In this document: piece by piece, positions 191 through 10,212 of the stretch | How positions within the stretch are numbered: the first letter of the stretch is position 1 | Layout of the letters: every line of letters begins with the position of its first letter | NCBI GenBank assembly: GCA_937930275.1 | Contig: CALGLM010000444.1 | Coordinates: 1-10,408 of the forward strand | DNA: 10,408 bases | Origin: an uncultured Ignavibacteria bacterium | Lineage (GTDB): Bacteria > Bacteroidota > Ignavibacteria > Ignavibacteriales > Melioribacteraceae | Direction of reading: 5' to 3' | Made by a program: the position numbers and the translations under genes | The notes under the pieces: model-generated | Seen by the model: the letters and a program-made list of their open reading frames with translations, nothing else | The model's database searches: none | What the model was told of the DNA's origin: nothing

Positions 191-1402
191 TTAAGCATTA
201 AATTGAAGTGTAAAAACAGTTCCGTTCCCTATTTTACTATTAACTACAAGTTGCCCTCTGTTTTTTTCAACTAACTCTTTCACTAATATTAAACCCAATC
301 CTGTTCCTTCTTCTCTTTCGGTACCTAAAGTAGTAAAGCTGCTTTCAATATTAAATACTTTATCAATCTGCTCCATGCTCATTCCTATACCCGTATCTTT
401 AACGGTAATAGTTAAATTGTGATTTTGTTTTATTGCGGCAACTTCAATTTTGCCTTTACGGGGTGTAAATTTTATAGCATTACTAATTAAATTTCGCAAG
501 GCTGTTAATAACATATTTCTATCGGCAAAAAATGTCATTTTTTCGCTGCAGTTAAATACCAGCTCAATTTCTTTGTTAAATGCTAAAATAATGTACATTT
601 CATGCAATAAATCAAATAAACCTTTAATGCTAAATAATTCCGGTGTGTATTGCATATTGCCGGTTTGCAAACGAGACCAATTTAATAAATTTTCTAACAA
701 CTCAAATAAATTTTTTGCCGATTTTTTTATAGAGAGCAAGGAATCCGAAATTTCTTCCGGGGATAATTCCTTAAATTCGTTGAACATCCAATCACTGTAC
801 GAAATTATTGCACCTAAAGGATTTTTCAAATCATGCGCCATAATTGAAAAAAACTTGTCTTTACTTGCATTAAGCTGAGTTAAATTATGGTTTATAACAT
901 TTAATTCTTCAGACTTTTCCTTAAGCTGTTCAAAAGCTTCTCGTAGTTTATCCTCAATTTTTTTTCTTTCTTCAATTTCAAAAAAAGCCTTATTTTTCAT
1001 TTCTCGGTAATTATCAATCTGCTTCTTTTCATCAGAAATATCAATAATTGAAAAAACGGCACAAATGTTTCCTTCATCCGCAATTTTAATTCCCATCACG
1101 GAAGTATGCTGAGTTCTATATTCTCCGTTTGGCAGCTTTATAGGTACAATATACTTATTAAGCTGTGAAGAGAAAAATTCCGGTGGTCCCCCTTTTAATA
1201 TTCCCTTAATTCTTTCTCTAAAAATATAATTATCTAAATTGGGAAAAGACGAAAACAAATTTTTGTTTTCAACGTCACTTTTTTTAATTCCGGAAAACTC
1301 TTGTAAGTGTTTATTCCAAAATACGATATTAAATTCTTTATTAACAACAAACACTCCGATATTTACATGATCATATAACTTAAAACACTCTTTCGTTTCC
1401 AT
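191..1402 (-). CDS. Soluble PAS-domain sensor histidine kinase
   Basis: This predicted cytoplasmic sensor kinase (403 aa from the ATG at 1402) should autophosphorylate on His and pass phosphate to a receiver. Domains in order: one PAS domain at about residues 9-125, a charged coiled-coil linker at about 126-180, a HisKA domain with H-box 'AHDLKNPL' (His190), and a HATPase_c domain with N-box 'NLISNAIKF' (Asn308), G1 'DTGIGM' (336-341) and G2 'GTGLGL' (366-371). No membrane segment, signal peptide or receiver is present. It is the fourth gene of a minus-strand operon and starts four bases after the CheC-like gene stops, so the single-domain receiver two genes upstream is the likely partner (inference). 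A GTG at 1414, overlapping the CheC gene by eight bases, is an alternative start adding four residues. I prefer the ATG, which has a weak GAGTGAG upstream. The PAS ligand cannot be read from sequence. Confidence 0.93.
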   Translation of the reverse strand: METKECFKLYDHVNIGVFVVNKEFNIVFWNKHLQEFSGIKKSDVENKNLFSSFPNLDNYIFRERIKGILKGGPPEFFSSQLNKYIVPIKLPNGEYRTQHTSVMGIKIADEGNICAVFSIIDISDEKKQIDNYREMKNKAFFEIEERKKIEDKLREAFEQLKEKSEELNVINHNLTQLNASKDKFFSIMAHDLKNPLGAIISYSDWMFNEFKELSPEEISDSLLSIKKSAKNLFELLENLLNWSRLQTGNMQYTPELFSIKGLFDLLHEMYIILAFNKEIELVFNCSEKMTFFADRNMLLTALRNLISNAIKFTPRKGKIEVAAIKQNHNLTITVKDTGIGMSMEQIDKVFNIESSFTTLGTEREEGTGLGLILVKELVEKNRGQLVVNSKIGNGTVFTLQFNA

Positions 1403-1406
1403 GTCT

Positions 1407-2006
1407 TTACTCACTCAACAATCTGTTTAATTCAGATTTTAGACTTTCAAAATAGAACAATTCAAGCAGAACAATTATATCTCCCTCAATATCAGCACTT
1501 TCTACTACAAAATGAGTTTCGCCAAAAAGGACTATTTTGTCTTCTGAAGTGGGGTCAATAAAAAGGTTTTCAAATATATCTTCCGAATATACAGGAATTG
1601 AATAATTAAAATCTTCTTTAATAATATTGGAAATCGTTCCCATAACTCCGTTTAGCAGCATATTAGCAACTTCATTTAAAGTACCTGCCCGTAAACCGTC
1701 TAATTCATCGCTATACGGTTCTTCGCCTGTTAAAATTGAAACTAAATTGTTCCCGCTTTCCGATGGAAAAACAATTTCGGCAATTCCGTTAAACGAACCC
1801 TCAAATTGTAGTTTTACCGCATAATATGTGGTCGATTTACCCGGCTTTAACTTTTTCACCAAATCAATAGGTCTTTCAACAATAATTTTTGGAATGGATA
1901 ATTTTATGGGAGAACTAATCAATTCGTTTAATAACTTGGCAGCTTTCCCAACCCCTATATTTATCAATTCTGTAAACAGATCTAATTGTTCGTTATTTAA
2001 TAGCAC
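1407..2006 (-). CDS. cheC: CheC-family CheY-P phosphatase
   Basis: This 199-aa protein matches the CheC/CheX/FliY family, which hydrolyses the phospho-aspartate of CheY-like receivers. The family signature (S/D)-x3-E-x2-N-x22-P occurs twice, as in two-site CheC proteins. The first copy is exact: Asp9, Glu13, Asn16, Pro39, with 'NIGVGKAAKLLNEL' between. The second has Glu112, Asn115 and Pro138 at the right spacing but Gly108 in place of Ser/Asp; the Glu/Asn pair is the catalytic part. The GTG start at 2006 is chosen because GAGGA (2016-2012) lies five bases upstream and the N-terminus then matches CheC homologues. A TTG at 2018, directly after the receiver's stop codon, would add four residues but has no ribosome site. 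It sits between a single-domain receiver and a histidine kinase. No CheA, CheW, CheD or chemoreceptor is in the window, so a role outside classical chemotaxis is possible. Confidence 0.88.
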   Translation of the reverse strand: MLLNNEQLDLFTELINIGVGKAAKLLNELISSPIKLSIPKIIVERPIDLVKKLKPGKSTTYYAVKLQFEGSFNGIAEIVFPSESGNNLVSILTGEEPYSDELDGLRAGTLNEVANMLLNGVMGTISNIIKEDFNYSIPVYSEDIFENLFIDPTSEDKIVLFGETHFVVESADIEGDIIVLLELFYFESLKSELNRLLSE

Positions 2007-2011
2007 AGTAA

Positions 2012-2016
2012 TCCTC
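2012..2016 (-). promoter_or_regulatory. Ribosome binding site deciding the CheC start
   Basis: GAGGA on the minus strand lies five bases before the GTG at 2006-2004. This favours the GTG over the upstream TTG at 2018-2016, which abuts the previous stop codon. The site lies just after the upstream receiver gene's stop, so the two genes are probably translationally coupled. Confidence 0.55.
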
Positions 2017-2018
2017 AA

Positions 2019-2375
2019 TTATAAATTTAATACTTTTTTTACCGTTTCAATTAAATCTTCCGCCTTAGGAGGTTTATTCAAAAACGCTTTCGCTCCTTTT
2101 TCAATACAATAATTCATGGTAGTTTCTTGTATATCCGCAGATAATACTACAACGGGAATGTTCATTTTATCATCAAACATTTTTTCTAATACTTCTTTTC
2201 CGGTAACATTTGGCATAAGTAAATCAAGTAAAATCAAATCAAACTTGTTTTCCTTTAATATTTCTAATGCTTCGGCACCGTCTTTTGCTTCAGTCATTTC
2301 AAATTTAAAATCAGACAAAATGGTCGTTAACCTTTTACGAATAAACTGAGAGTCATCACAAATTAAAATTTTCAT
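2019..2375 (-). CDS. Single-domain CheY-like response regulator
   Basis: At 118 aa this is one receiver domain and nothing else. The acidic pair Asp7/Asp8 ('ILICDDS'), phospho-acceptor Asp51 ('DLILLDLLMPNVTG'), switch Ser79 and invariant Lys101 ('NKPP') are all present, so it should be phosphorylatable with Mg2+. With no DNA-binding or enzymatic output domain it must act by protein contact, like CheY or a phosphorelay carrier. AGGGG at 2388-2384 gives an eight-base spacer to the ATG and overlaps the end of the YhcH-family gene (five-base gap). The next gene, a CheC phosphatase, starts within 12 bases of its stop, and a histidine kinase follows. Kinase, carrier and phosphatase in one operon imply a closed phosphorylation cycle (inference). 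The target of the phosphorylated protein is not visible. Confidence 0.93.
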   Translation of the reverse strand: MKILICDDSQFIRKRLTTILSDFKFEMTEAKDGAEALEILKENKFDLILLDLLMPNVTGKEVLEKMFDDKMNIPVVVLSADIQETTMNYCIEKGAKAFLNKPPKAEDLIETVKKVLNL

Positions 2376-3001: not shown

Positions 3002-6000
3002 ATGAAATATAAATTAGTCGTATTGTTTCTTTTTGTTGTTGGTTTTGTAAATGCCCAAAATTCGTTGAACGAACAAAACAGTTTTGGTCAATCGGATGTT
3101 TTACTTCAAGGTTATTATTGGAATTGCACTCCGGGCGGTGTATGGTGGGATACTTTAACAAACAATTCTGCCGAATTAGCCTCGGCATTATTTAAGGGTG
3201 TTTTACTCCCTTCCCCCTCTAAAGGTACTGCCGGAAAGTTTTCAATGGGTTACGATATTTACGACCACTACGACTTAGGAGACTTTTATCAACAAGGAAC
3301 AACCGAAACCCGTTTTGGCAGCAAACAAGAATTGTTAAAATTAAGTGAAAAGTTAAAAGCTTTTAATTTAGATATTTACAGTGACGTAATTTTAGGTTAC
3401 GTTACAGGCGGCGAGCTTCCACAAAAATATGAATGTGCACCAAACGGTATTGTTGATTCGTCAAATTTAATTTTTAACTATCCTAACGGTTCAGGGCGGT
3501 TCAAAAAAGACGCAACATTTTTTTACCCTAATTCGGGTTATTGTGAGCCTGACTTATTTAAAAGACGAATTAATAAAATTGCCGATAGAAAACCGGAATG
3601 GTTTGCATTTAATCGATTATTTGTACAGGATAGTTTAATTGAATACGGAAAATTTTTGCAAAACGAATTAAATTTATCCGGCTTTAGATTATTTCAATCC
3701 AATTTTCTTGATATTAAATTTTTAGAATCTTGGTTAACAGTTTTTAATAAATTAAATATAAAATCGATTTTAGATTTTACCGGAGATAAAACATCCCTAA
3801 GCATTTTTACTGCCGATAAAGATTTAATTAATAATTCAAATATATTAATTTTTGATTATGAGCTAAGAAATGCGCTTTTTGAATTATGCAACACCAAAAA
3901 CGGAGGATATGATTTATCGAAACTTGATGAAATAGGGCTAATTAACAAAGGCATTAACTCCGAAAAAGTACTCCACTTTGTTGAAACAACCGAATTTGAT
4001 AAAACCAACTACGAAAATATAAATGAAAGTAGTTTTGGGAATATAATACGCAATAAAAAATATGCATATACTTATATTTTATTTGCCGAAGGAACTCCTT
4101 CTATTTTTTATCGCGATTATTTTTATACTGATTTAAAAGATTATATAAATAAATTAATATTGGCAAGATCAAAATATATAAAAGGGAAAACGTATAATAG
4201 ATTTGATATAAATGCGTTTTTTATTAGAGACGATAAAAAACAGAAACAATCGTTATTATCAAAAGATATTTATATTTTACATAGAAGCGAAAAAGAAGAC
4301 GGAAGCGGAGCTTATTTAATTATTAACGATAGCCCGACTAATGCTTATCAAATCCTTTCCGATACCGAACTACCTGTAGGTTATAAATTAAAAAATATTA
4401 CCGGTGGTAACTCGTATGCAGAAGTTATAAAGGAAAGCGCCGGAAGTATAAAAAACAAAATTCGATTTGTTGTATCTCCGGCAACGGCCGTTATTTTTGT
4501 AACCGATACATACGTTCAATTAAACAATCCTCCGGCAATTCAAAAAATTGACGATATAGTTACTTACACAGATACAAAATTTGAATATCAAATAAGTTAT
4601 AGTGATGCAAACAAAGACGAACTTAGTTTTGATTTAAAACAAGCCCCAAATTGGTTAAACCTTGATAACAACGGATTATTAAGCGGTACTCCCGGATTTT
4701 TTGATATCGGGAATAATCAAGTAATAATAAGTTTAAAAGATACATGGGGATTTGCAGTAAGTGATACGTTTAATATTAGCGTTACGAGAAACTCATCACC
4801 GGTTATCGGAAATTTACCCGATAAATTTTGTTTAGTTGCCGAAAGATTTAATACAAGCGTAAAAGCATTTGATAGCGAAGGAGATTCGTTATATTTTTAC
4901 CTAAAACAAGCTCCGAATTGGTTAAGTATTGGCGAGTATTCCGGAATTTTGAGCGGAACTCCCGGAATTAAAGACACCGGGTTATACCAAATAAATGTTT
5001 ACGTTAAAGATAGCAGAGGCGGCGAAGATAGTACTACATTTAAACTTAATGTAAAAATTGACCCAAATACACCTATAAACACATATTCAAAACCCTATAT
5101 TGACGGTATTGTTGAAGCTACCGATAATGATTGGCGAGATGATTGGCTACTTTATAATGATGAAGAAGAAGACGGCGTACAAGATAATAAACCTTCACCG
5201 GATAATGATATTTTTTCGCTTTATGCAACTTGGGATAGCGATAGTTTGTACTTAGGCACCGAGTATGTTTTAGAAAAAGATAAATCATTTATTATTTATT
5301 TGGATGCAGGATTTACCGAAGGAATAAAAGATTTCAGCACATCCGGAGGTTATTTAGGCGATTACCCGTTTAATATTCAGTTCCCCGATAGCTTGAATAT
5401 CGATTATTTCATTATCCAAAATAATGTTGAAAATTATAATATTTTTGAATGTTTTGAAGAAAAAACAACAAGTTTTAAAAGTAAAATTAACGGCATTATA
5501 AAAAAATCAAATTCAAGTGCCGAGTTTTCCATAGCTTGGGATGATATTTACGGAATGGGAGCGGGAATAATTCCTCAAAATACAGAAATTAATGCGGTTG
5601 CCGTAATTATCGGCAACAGAAATACAAGTCCTATTGATACCGCACCGGATAACGAGGATGTTACCGGTTCTATGAAACCATGCTTTATAAACGAATTTGT
5701 TAAAATTTCACCGGATCAAAACGGTGACGGAATAGCTGATCCTACAACAATTATTTACGCTAAAAAATTTGTTCCGTTTACAACAGGTAGTGAAAATTTA
5801 AAACTCTATCAAAATTATCCCAATCCTTTTAATTCAACTACTACTATATTTTTTGAAGTCAAATATCCTGCTTCTGTCCAATTAAAAGTATATGATGTAC
5901 TCGGTAGAGAAGTATATGAAATTGTTAACAGATATTTGAGCGCAGGGAACTATAAATTTGAATTTGATGCTTCCAATCTCCCTTCCGGAACATATTTTTA

Positions 6001-6055
6001 TAGATTGAAGGGGGGAGGATTTGTTGACGTAAAAAAAATGATTTTAATAAAATAA
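3002..6055 (+). CDS. Secreted GH13 alpha-amylase-like protein with altered catalytic site, T9SS sorting domain
   Basis: This 1017-aa exported protein starts at ATG 3002 with a clean signal peptide ('MKYKLVVLFLFVVGFVNA', cleavage after Ala18). Domains: GH13 barrel about 24-400 ('LLQGYYW', 'WWDTL', 'MGYDIYDHYDLGDF', 'TRFGSKQEL'), beta-domain to about 503, two He_PIG-like Ig modules (510-595 and 599-686, each with 'LKQAPNWL' and 'LSGTPG'), a DOMON/carbohydrate-binding-like module about 697-925, and a T9SS type A sorting domain 934-1017. The catalytic regions are altered: region II 'GFRLFQSNF' has Phe231 where the nucleophile Asp belongs; the acid/base position appears to be Asp258 rather than Glu; region IV 'FVETTE' has Glu331 in place of the His-Asp end; region I lost Asn-His ('DVILGY'). 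The frame is intact, so it is a probable pseudo-enzyme that binds glycans rather than a pseudogene. GGAG at 2985-2988 is 13 bases from the ATG. A GTG at 2969 would only prepend 11 residues. Confidence 0.9.
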   Translation: MKYKLVVLFLFVVGFVNAQNSLNEQNSFGQSDVLLQGYYWNCTPGGVWWDTLTNNSAELASALFKGVLLPSPSKGTAGKFSMGYDIYDHYDLGDFYQQGTTETRFGSKQELLKLSEKLKAFNLDIYSDVILGYVTGGELPQKYECAPNGIVDSSNLIFNYPNGSGRFKKDATFFYPNSGYCEPDLFKRRINKIADRKPEWFAFNRLFVQDSLIEYGKFLQNELNLSGFRLFQSNFLDIKFLESWLTVFNKLNIKSILDFTGDKTSLSIFTADKDLINNSNILIFDYELRNALFELCNTKNGGYDLSKLDEIGLINKGINSEKVLHFVETTEFDKTNYENINESSFGNIIRNKKYAYTYILFAEGTPSIFYRDYFYTDLKDYINKLILARSKYIKGKTYNRFDINAFFIRDDKKQKQSLLSKDIYILHRSEKEDGSGAYLIINDSPTNAYQILSDTELPVGYKLKNITGGNSYAEVIKESAGSIKNKIRFVVSPATAVIFVTDTYVQLNNPPAIQKIDDIVTYTDTKFEYQISYSDANKDELSFDLKQAPNWLNLDNNGLLSGTPGFFDIGNNQVIISLKDTWGFAVSDTFNISVTRNSSPVIGNLPDKFCLVAERFNTSVKAFDSEGDSLYFYLKQAPNWLSIGEYSGILSGTPGIKDTGLYQINVYVKDSRGGEDSTTFKLNVKIDPNTPINTYSKPYIDGIVEATDNDWRDDWLLYNDEEEDGVQDNKPSPDNDIFSLYATWDSDSLYLGTEYVLEKDKSFIIYLDAGFTEGIKDFSTSGGYLGDYPFNIQFPDSLNIDYFIIQNNVENYNIFECFEEKTTSFKSKINGIIKKSNSSAEFSIAWDDIYGMGAGIIPQNTEINAVAVIIGNRNTSPIDTAPDNEDVTGSMKPCFINEFVKISPDQNGDGIADPTTIIYAKKFVPFTTGSENLKLYQNYPNPFNSTTTIFFEVKYPASVQLKVYDVLGREVYEIVNRYLSAGNYKFEFDASNLPSGTYFYRLKGGGFVDVKKMILIK

Positions 6056-9388: not shown

Positions 9389-9796
9389 ATGCCTTTAGTA
9401 AACTGGACTGATAAGTTAAGTTTGGGGATTACCGAAATTGATAATCAACATAAAAAATGGATAGCCATTATAAATGATTTAAATGACGCTATGCGCGCCG
9501 GTAAATCAAAAGAGGTTTTAGGCGAAGTATTTAAAAGATTGATTGATTACACTGAATATCACTTTAAAGCGGAAGAAACTTATTTTGAAAAATTTGGCTA
9601 TCCCGAAAAAACTTCGCATAAAATGGAACACCAGAAAATGGTTAATGAAGTTAACGGTTATTATAACGATTTTAAAGCAGGTAAAATGACCGTATCTATA
9701 AATTTAATGCAACTGCTTAGTAATTGGTTATTAGACCATATCCAGAAAAAAGATAAAAATTACGCACCGTTTTTAATCGAAAAAGGTATTAAATAG
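9389..9796 (+). CDS. Bacteriohemerythrin (first of tandem pair)
   Basis: This 135-aa single-domain cytoplasmic protein should form the four-helix bundle of hemerythrin and bind O2 at a non-haem di-iron centre. All seven ligands are present at canonical spacing: His21 ('DNQHK'), His58 and Glu62 ('YHFKAEE'), His77 and His81 ('HKMEH'), His117 and Asp122 ('DHIQKKD'). The length is typical of stand-alone bacteriohemerythrins. Bacterial members have been linked to O2 delivery, O2 sensing, protection of iron enzymes and motility; which applies here cannot be read from sequence. The gene has a strong GGAGG site and lies between the SdpI-like gene (12-base gap) and a paralogue (8-base gap), in an apparent operon. 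It differs from the paralogue at residues that may shape the pocket, for example Trp24 versus Leu24 and Ala61 versus Phe61. Confidence 0.95.
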   Translation: MPLVNWTDKLSLGITEIDNQHKKWIAIINDLNDAMRAGKSKEVLGEVFKRLIDYTEYHFKAEETYFEKFGYPEKTSHKMEHQKMVNEVNGYYNDFKAGKMTVSINLMQLLSNWLLDHIQKKDKNYAPFLIEKGIK

Positions 9797-9800
9797 GAGA
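9795..9800 (+). promoter_or_regulatory. Ribosome binding site of the second hemerythrin
   Basis: AGGAGA overlaps the TAG stop of the first hemerythrin (9794-9796) and lies four bases before the ATG at 9805, which suggests translational coupling of the two paralogues. Confidence 0.6.
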
Positions 9801-9804
9801 AAAT

Positions 9805-10212
9805 ATGCCGCTTATTAATTGGGGTCCAAAATACAGTGTGGGAATATCGTCAATTGATACACAACACAAAAAACTTGTAGATATAATTAACGATTTAAAT
9901 GATGCAATGCGAAACGGTAAATCTAAAGAAGTTTTAAATACTACTTTAACTTCGCTAATAGATTATACAAAAGTTCACTTTAAATTTGAAGAGGACTTGT
10001 TTAATAAATACGGATACGCCGAAAAACTATCGCATAAAATGCTTCATGATAAGCTTACCAGACAAGTGTTGGATTTTTATGATAACTACCAAAAAGGTAA
10101 AGCAACGGTTTCAATAGAGCTAATGAACTTTTTAAGCGATTGGTTATTAAAACACATTGTTGCAGAAGATAAAAAATATACCGATTTTTTAACCCAAAAG
10201 GGTGTTAAATAG
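9805..10212 (+). CDS. Bacteriohemerythrin (second of tandem pair)
   Basis: This 135-aa protein aligns without gaps to the preceding hemerythrin; by hand count 79 of 135 residues are identical (about 58%). The di-iron ligands are complete: His21 ('DTQHK'), His58 and Glu62 ('VHFKFEE'), His77 and His81 ('HKMLH'), His117 and Asp122 ('KHIVAED'). It is thus a functional-looking O2- or redox-active di-iron protein rather than a decayed copy. The shared length, start 'MPL.NW' and end 'KG.K' point to a local tandem duplication followed by divergence. It begins eight bases after the first copy stops, with its own ribosome site, and is the last gene of the cluster. I see no clear terminator hairpin after its stop codon; the 140 bases to position 10353 are AT-rich and show no gene. 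Confidence 0.95.
   Translation: MPLINWGPKYSVGISSIDTQHKKLVDIINDLNDAMRNGKSKEVLNTTLTSLIDYTKVHFKFEEDLFNKYGYAEKLSHKMLHDKLTRQVLDFYDNYQKGKATVSIELMNFLSDWLLKHIVAEDKKYTDFLTQKGVK

Follow-up and report, generated by a model that had tools for sequence, protein, structure and literature searches.

The window, a 10,408-nucleotide stretch of DNA from an uncultured Ignavibacteria bacterium (contig CALGLM010000444.1), carries a gene for a 1,017-residue protein that is built like an exported alpha-amylase of glycoside hydrolase family 13 (GH13) and in which the catalytic residues of that family are replaced. Residue numbers are counted from the ATG at 3002; the listed open reading frame (ORF) starts earlier, at a GTG at 2969. 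The gene and the domains of its product, including a sorting domain of the type IX secretion system (T9SS), are as follows.

3002..6055, plus strand: putative pseudo-amylase gene, 1017 residues, from ATG 3002 to the stop codon at 6053-6055
3002..3058, plus strand: signal peptide, residues about 1-19 (MKYKLVVLFLFVVGFVNAQ), judged by eye from the sequence
3089..4201, plus strand: GH13-type (beta/alpha)8 barrel, residues 30-400
3440-3616, plus strand: domain B of the barrel, residues about 147-205
4202..4501, plus strand: GH13 domain C, residues about 401-500, from the secondary structure of the model and PDB matches covering residues 28-503
4514..5071, plus strand: two He_PIG immunoglobulin (Ig)-like domains, residues about 505-690, outer limits approximate (PF05345, 70.9 bits in two stretches, cut-off 24)
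5069..5785, plus strand: C-terminal beta-sandwich, residues 690-928, by fold nearest to the carbohydrate-binding module (CBM) CBM74 of Ruminococcus bromii Sas6 and second to CBM9; no Pfam model
5816..6043, plus strand: T9SS type A C-terminal sorting domain, residues 939-1014 (PF18962, 44.4 bits, cut-off 27; TIGR04183, 47.8 bits, curated cut-off 23)

The GH13 fold is retained, with the (beta/alpha)8 barrel and domains B and C all present, and the closest PDB relatives of the protein are alpha-amylases. The framework motifs quoted in an initial annotation of this DNA, which had called the protein a pseudo-amylase kept for a non-hydrolytic role, are all there, and the TIGR04183 score identifies the protein as a T9SS type A cargo. 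Family profiles respond less clearly. NCBIfam model NF006970 scores 226 bits, below its cut-off of 516, and PF00128 gave no match to the GH13 part at E values up to 10, in a program whose filters drop most weak matches. PF00128 is in any case a weak discriminator, being absent from the precomputed Pfam lists of some intact relatives (P0010, P0014).

A first search returned 105 related proteins, of which P0001-P0008, clusters with 22 member sequences, are 52 to 100% identical to the window protein. The window protein and these eight clusters at 52% identity or more make up the nine rows referred to below as the clade; one of them, P0008, does pass PF00128 (29.7 bits, cut-off 22). For comparison we used an alignment of 109 rows, nine of the clade and 100 others, consisting of the window protein, 64 relatives, 38 locus ORFs and six outgroup rows; over the barrel columns, eight of the rows are identical to others. 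The locus ORFs were drawn from 63 matching ones by setting aside the weakest 20 and omitting five of the top 43 as copies, and only six outgroup rows were taken from P0065-P0105. The positions at issue, all on the plus strand, compare with the 100 other rows as follows.

3398..3400: Y133, region I His position; His in 100/100 others
3692..3694: F231, nucleophile position; Phe in 9/9 clade rows, Asp in 100/100 others
3701..3703: N234, region II Lys position; Asn in 9/9 clade rows, Lys in 97/100 others
3773..3775: D258, acid/base position; Asp in 9/9 clade rows, Glu in 100/100 others
3986..3994: T329-T330-E331 replacing Asn-His-Asp of region IV; E331, the stabiliser position, Glu in 9/9 clade rows, Asp in 100/100 others

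The GH13 triad, given in the excerpts of PMC11239784 as an Asp on strand beta4, a Glu on beta5 and an Asp on beta7, is thus replaced in the window protein by F231, D258 and E331. In the homologue alignment they fall in the columns of the nucleophile, the acid/base and the stabiliser, and a HMMER alignment to the solved amylase 3bc9 puts regions II, III and IV in matching register. Both bear out the initial annotation, which had located F231, D258 and T330-E331 (3989-3994) correctly to the base. It had also supposed that region I had lost its Asn-His, and here only the His part stands: position 133 is Tyr in eight clade rows and Trp in one, while Asn occupies its position in just 58 of the 100 other rows (and in one of the nine clade rows). 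Neither region I nor region IV retains its histidine (His133, His330) in any clade row; both are present in all 100 others. Against this background of loss, Tyr84 and the Arg two residues ahead of the nucleophile (R229) are preserved in all 109 rows. P0005 has additionally lost the region I Asp128, which is Asn there and is kept by the other 108 rows. A protein that lacks the nucleophile and the histidines of regions I and IV is very unlikely to perform retaining hydrolysis in the established GH13 manner.

The same replacements were evident from the first search, in which P0001-P0008 carry GFR[LI]F together with Asp258 and Glu331, whereas P0009-P0064, at 39% identity and lower, have normal catalytic residues. 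Close homologues with a normal triad, which would have spoken for error or decay, were thus looked for and the close relatives all proved to have Phe/Asp/Glu (F/D/E). That F/D/E is common to eight separate clusters is more than chance. P0004 bears the database name 'alpha-amylase' although it belongs to the clade and has no canonical catalytic residues, so genes of this kind can inflate counts of starch degraders.

Further searches did not enlarge the clade. A clade-profile search added no member from the candidates that it scored; the barrel by itself, used to look for forms of about 275-875 residues at E values up to 1e-60, gave two matches, P0049 and P0064, both with Asp/Glu/Asp (D/E/D); a pattern search of genome contigs found four loci at 35-37% identity, all with an intact triad; and none was found in the viral contigs searched. 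The genome searches covered, in overlapping sets, 391 genomes from the class of G001 (drawn from a larger group), 79 and 80 from the families of G364 and G141, and 164 from the order of G141; they turned up no clade member, the best match having 40% identity. The three protein searches each scored about 8,000 candidates sharing most words, and more clade members may exist.

In a tree of the barrel built without the catalytic columns, the nine substituted rows form one clade with a value of 100 in the Shimodaira-Hasegawa-like approximate likelihood ratio test (SH-aLRT). A careful tree of 38 rows recovers eight of them at 100/100; P0001, which differs from the window protein at two residues, was omitted from this tree and from the rate and invariance analyses. 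The clade is nested within the intact family, in enclosing groups of 31 rows (99/92) and 35 rows (100/99), on a long stem (1.94 in the barrel tree, 1.7 in the 38-row tree). It arose once, inside the intact family. The intact Ignavibacteria-type T9SS amylases around it (P0009 and L015, for example), with He_PIG and CBM-like domains, share domain order and length with the window protein, and those in P0009-P0048 are 35-39% identical to it; by the trees they have a common ancestor with it. They differ in having D/E/D, His133, His330, nearly always Lys234, and the conserved aromatic residues of the C-terminal module described below.

Rates were estimated by partition for 48 proteins under LG+G4 on a fixed tree, giving protein-level figures. 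Change per site along the stem was greatest in the catalytic half of the barrel (residues 206-400, 1.83), followed by the C-terminal module (1.29), domain C (1.18), the N-terminal half of the barrel (residues 30-205, 0.86), the Ig domains (0.37) and the T9SS tail (0.22). Within the clade, change summed to 1.81 for GH13 (2.28 for its catalytic half), 2.68 for the Ig domains, 2.61 for the module and 1.26 for the tail. One clade, the same substitutions down to 52% identity, open frames and a barrel slower than the Ig domains and module support the earlier proposal that selection has kept the protein.

Within the barrel, the cleft side is now the most invariant part. We compared a set of cleft-side loops, drawn by hand from the secondary structure of the model and including residues 42-46, 75-82 and 97-102 with a predicted local distance difference test score (pLDDT) under 50, with the rest of the barrel. 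Among eight distinct clade rows, 56% of cleft-side loop positions (n=118) and 53% of domain B (59) are invariant, compared with 28% of the remaining barrel (193; circular-shift P about 0.002 for cleft loops versus remaining barrel), 38% of domain C, 24% of the Ig domains, 37% of the module and 49% of the tail. The intact family conserves 137 sites of the barrel. Thirty of them are lost in all nine clade rows, and at 12 of these a single new residue has become invariant, for example in D231F, K234N, E258D, F286Y, T325H, D331E and G339N. New residues fixed in 9/9 rows include F231, N234, D258, Y286, H325, E331, N339, K192 and K197.

Taken together, the data favor the view, to which we assign a probability of about 0.6, that the protein is a GH13-fold surface binding protein that does not hydrolyze its ligand, has a single origin and is maintained. 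It combines homology to an enzyme family with a loss of catalytic residues common to a conserved clade and, judged from sequence, is an old, maintained pseudoenzyme; the clade protein is probably no longer an enzyme, and glycan binding is plausible. In the scheme we propose, the ancestor was an intact amylase of Ignavibacteria type that already had this domain architecture; it would have lost its activity once, undergone a burst of change, most intense in the barrel's catalytic half, and then settled as a non-hydrolytic binder. The type IX system would export the protein and sort it to the cell surface, where two Ig domains and the CBM-like module would form a stalk, and the former active-site cleft with domain B would be a conserved site that holds a ligand uncut. 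That ligand would probably be a carbohydrate and not necessarily starch. Such a non-hydrolytic surface binding protein is what the sorting tail, the stalk and the conserved cleft suggest. The intact frame, the triad replacement common to the whole clade, the single origin and the continued constraint on the cleft side are direct observations, whereas the absence of hydrolysis, the surface location, ligand binding by the cleft and the kind of ligand are inferred.

Several observations weigh against this view. The ratio of change in the clade to change in the intact family is higher for GH13 (0.240; catalytic half 0.311) than for the other parts (Ig 0.176, module 0.170, tail 0.077), so the barrel is partly relaxed relative to that of an active enzyme. 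In the intact family, too, no part of the barrel is better conserved than the cleft loops (mean entropy 0.78 versus 1.14); the data therefore show that the cleft stayed constrained rather than that it came under a new constraint, and the pattern is at least partly inherited. Nor are the lost sites concentrated in the cleft (15/60, compared with 15/77 outside; Fisher P 0.53). The exact placement of the clade in the tree is weakened by the unusual composition of its rows, and no known sugar-uptake gene is present in the window. Finally, the aromatic residues that mark the C-terminal module in intact rows (W727 in 96/96, an aromatic at 807 in 77/87 and at 875 in 87/87) are absent from 9/9 clade rows.

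The first of these aromatic positions is occupied in the window protein by a glutamine.

5180..5182, plus strand: Q727, where all 96 other rows with a residue there have Trp

The 100 other rows include some with another C-terminal architecture, whose module alignment is less sure. Among 76 chosen rows, Trp727 is found in 76/76, and the 72 that have a residue at 807 and 875 all carry an aromatic there. The module resembles the Sas6 CBM74 fold. The matched part of Sas6 has about 320 residues versus 239 in the window module, and a sequence profile of 30 modules retrieved no Sas6 sequence at E values up to 10. None of these 30 members (5069-5785 and 29 homologous locus segments) has a convincing Pfam match, the best E value being 0.08. 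In the intact enzymes, this CBM74/CBM9-like domain may be an undescribed starch-binding module.

Starch is the obvious first candidate for a ligand of the clade protein, but the loss of the module's conserved aromatics suggests that the ligand may not be starch. A tentative extension of the binding-protein reading is that the whole protein was retooled, cleft and carbohydrate-binding module alike having been rebuilt from a starch-degrading surface amylase for a new ligand. The new fixed residues and the lost module aromatics would then mean a surface receptor for something other than an alpha-glucan, or new chemistry at D258, E331 and H325. If the ligand has indeed changed, the clade would illustrate a route by which polysaccharide enzymes give rise to surface receptors. 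SusE/SusF and the Sas proteins hold starch at the cell surface for active amylases, and the clade protein could do likewise, its cleft and CBM74-like module still binding alpha-glucan. We consider such tethering of starch unlikely, since besides the missing module aromatics 727, 807 and 875, which argue against simple retention of starch binding, the cleft has lost His133, His330 and Lys234, and the barrel Tyr376, found in 76/76 intact rows, occurs in 0/9 clade rows.

It is less probable still that the protein is an enzyme with a rearranged mechanism, working through the carboxylate pair D258/E331 or, as in BmaN1, through a residue next to the nucleophile position. According to the excerpts of PMC5347038, BmaN1 was reported active despite a Lys at the nucleophile, a His at the stabiliser and an Asp one residue downstream of the nucleophile position. 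In the clade, D258 and E331 do not vary, and four of the nine rows (P0005-P0008) have a Glu at 232. However, Glu232 also occurs in 6/100 intact rows and is therefore not specific; the window protein and four relatives (5/9) have Gln there; Phe stands at the nucleophile position in 9/9 rows; and the region I and IV histidines are lost throughout. BmaN1 moreover retains the acid/base Glu, and the Asp that follows its nucleophile position is strictly conserved; the window protein has D258 and Q232 at these places. A shifted nucleophile of the BmaN1 kind is thus rejected for the window protein, while for the four Glu232 relatives the case is not fully closed. Whether a carboxylate is supplied from elsewhere, the refutation envisaged by the initial annotation, was checked by alignment and strand positions only, and there is none at 231 or 232 (Q) in the window protein.

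We think it very unlikely that the protein is a regulatory partner, a dead paralogue that teams up with an active amylase in the way that ISA2 pairs with ISA1. The noncatalytic ISA2 provides a precedent (excerpts of PMC12510319), and intact family members are present in genomes of the same class; yet no genome with the substituted form was among those searched, so it was not seen alongside an active member, and identity between substituted and intact forms reaches about 40% at most. An artefact of sequencing or a recent decay can be dismissed, as eight further clusters, with 22 member sequences drawn from several sources, show the same three changes at full length and down to 52% identity.

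GH13 proteins without activity are already known. The heavy chains rBAT and 4F2hc (GH13_34/_35) are described as non-enzymatic relatives, and some GH13_48 proteins lack one or more catalytic residues (both from excerpts of PMC11239784); the excerpts of PMC12510319 present ISA2 as an old noncatalytic paralogue in which the nucleophile and other catalytic residues vary, and those of PMC8063059 mention sandfly amylases in which the typical triads are missing. rBAT and 4F2hc are, however, subunits of amino acid transporters, and ISA2 is the plant partner of a debranching enzyme, whereas the window protein is bacterial and has a T9SS tail and a CBM-like domain. Nearer to it are GH13_45 members around BmaN1, which like the clade are bacterial and have non-canonical catalytic residues, and a second small group near BmaN1 in which all three catalytic residues are replaced with no obvious regularity (excerpts of PMC5347038); the present clade differs from the latter in being uniformly F/D/E (9/9). 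Among the matches listed from the open-licence PMC literature, no paper deals with the clade. What sets the clade apart is the uniform replacement, the T9SS architecture and the clean contrast with intact relatives: a natural bacterial case in which a multi-domain glycoside hydrolase would have become a maintained non-enzyme on one branch, with many intact comparators.

The neighbors upstream of the gene, on the minus strand, encode a DUF386 protein, a response regulator, a CheX-like protein and a PAS histidine kinase. Those downstream lie on the plus strand and encode a PAS hybrid kinase, an SdpI-like protein and two hemerythrins. Gaps of about 170 and 190 bases flank the gene, which, together with the divergent upstream neighbor, suggests that it may stand alone. 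Between bases 2780 and 6260, promoter-like sites occur at chance level (17 versus 17.9) and terminator-like sites exceed shuffled sequences (7 versus 1.8), with all seven inside the ORF and none in the gap after it. Rfam models at gathering scores and a tRNA search gave no hits.

The response regulator, CheX-like protein and PAS histidine kinase (191-2375, minus strand; compare L043, L044, L045 and L046) form a cassette found together in 4/4 of the CheX loci fetched, 17 of the 391 genomes searched having a CheX match; it looks like a conserved signalling unit. At the other end of the window, the tandem hemerythrin-like genes (9389-10212) are 59% identical and are probably a duplication.
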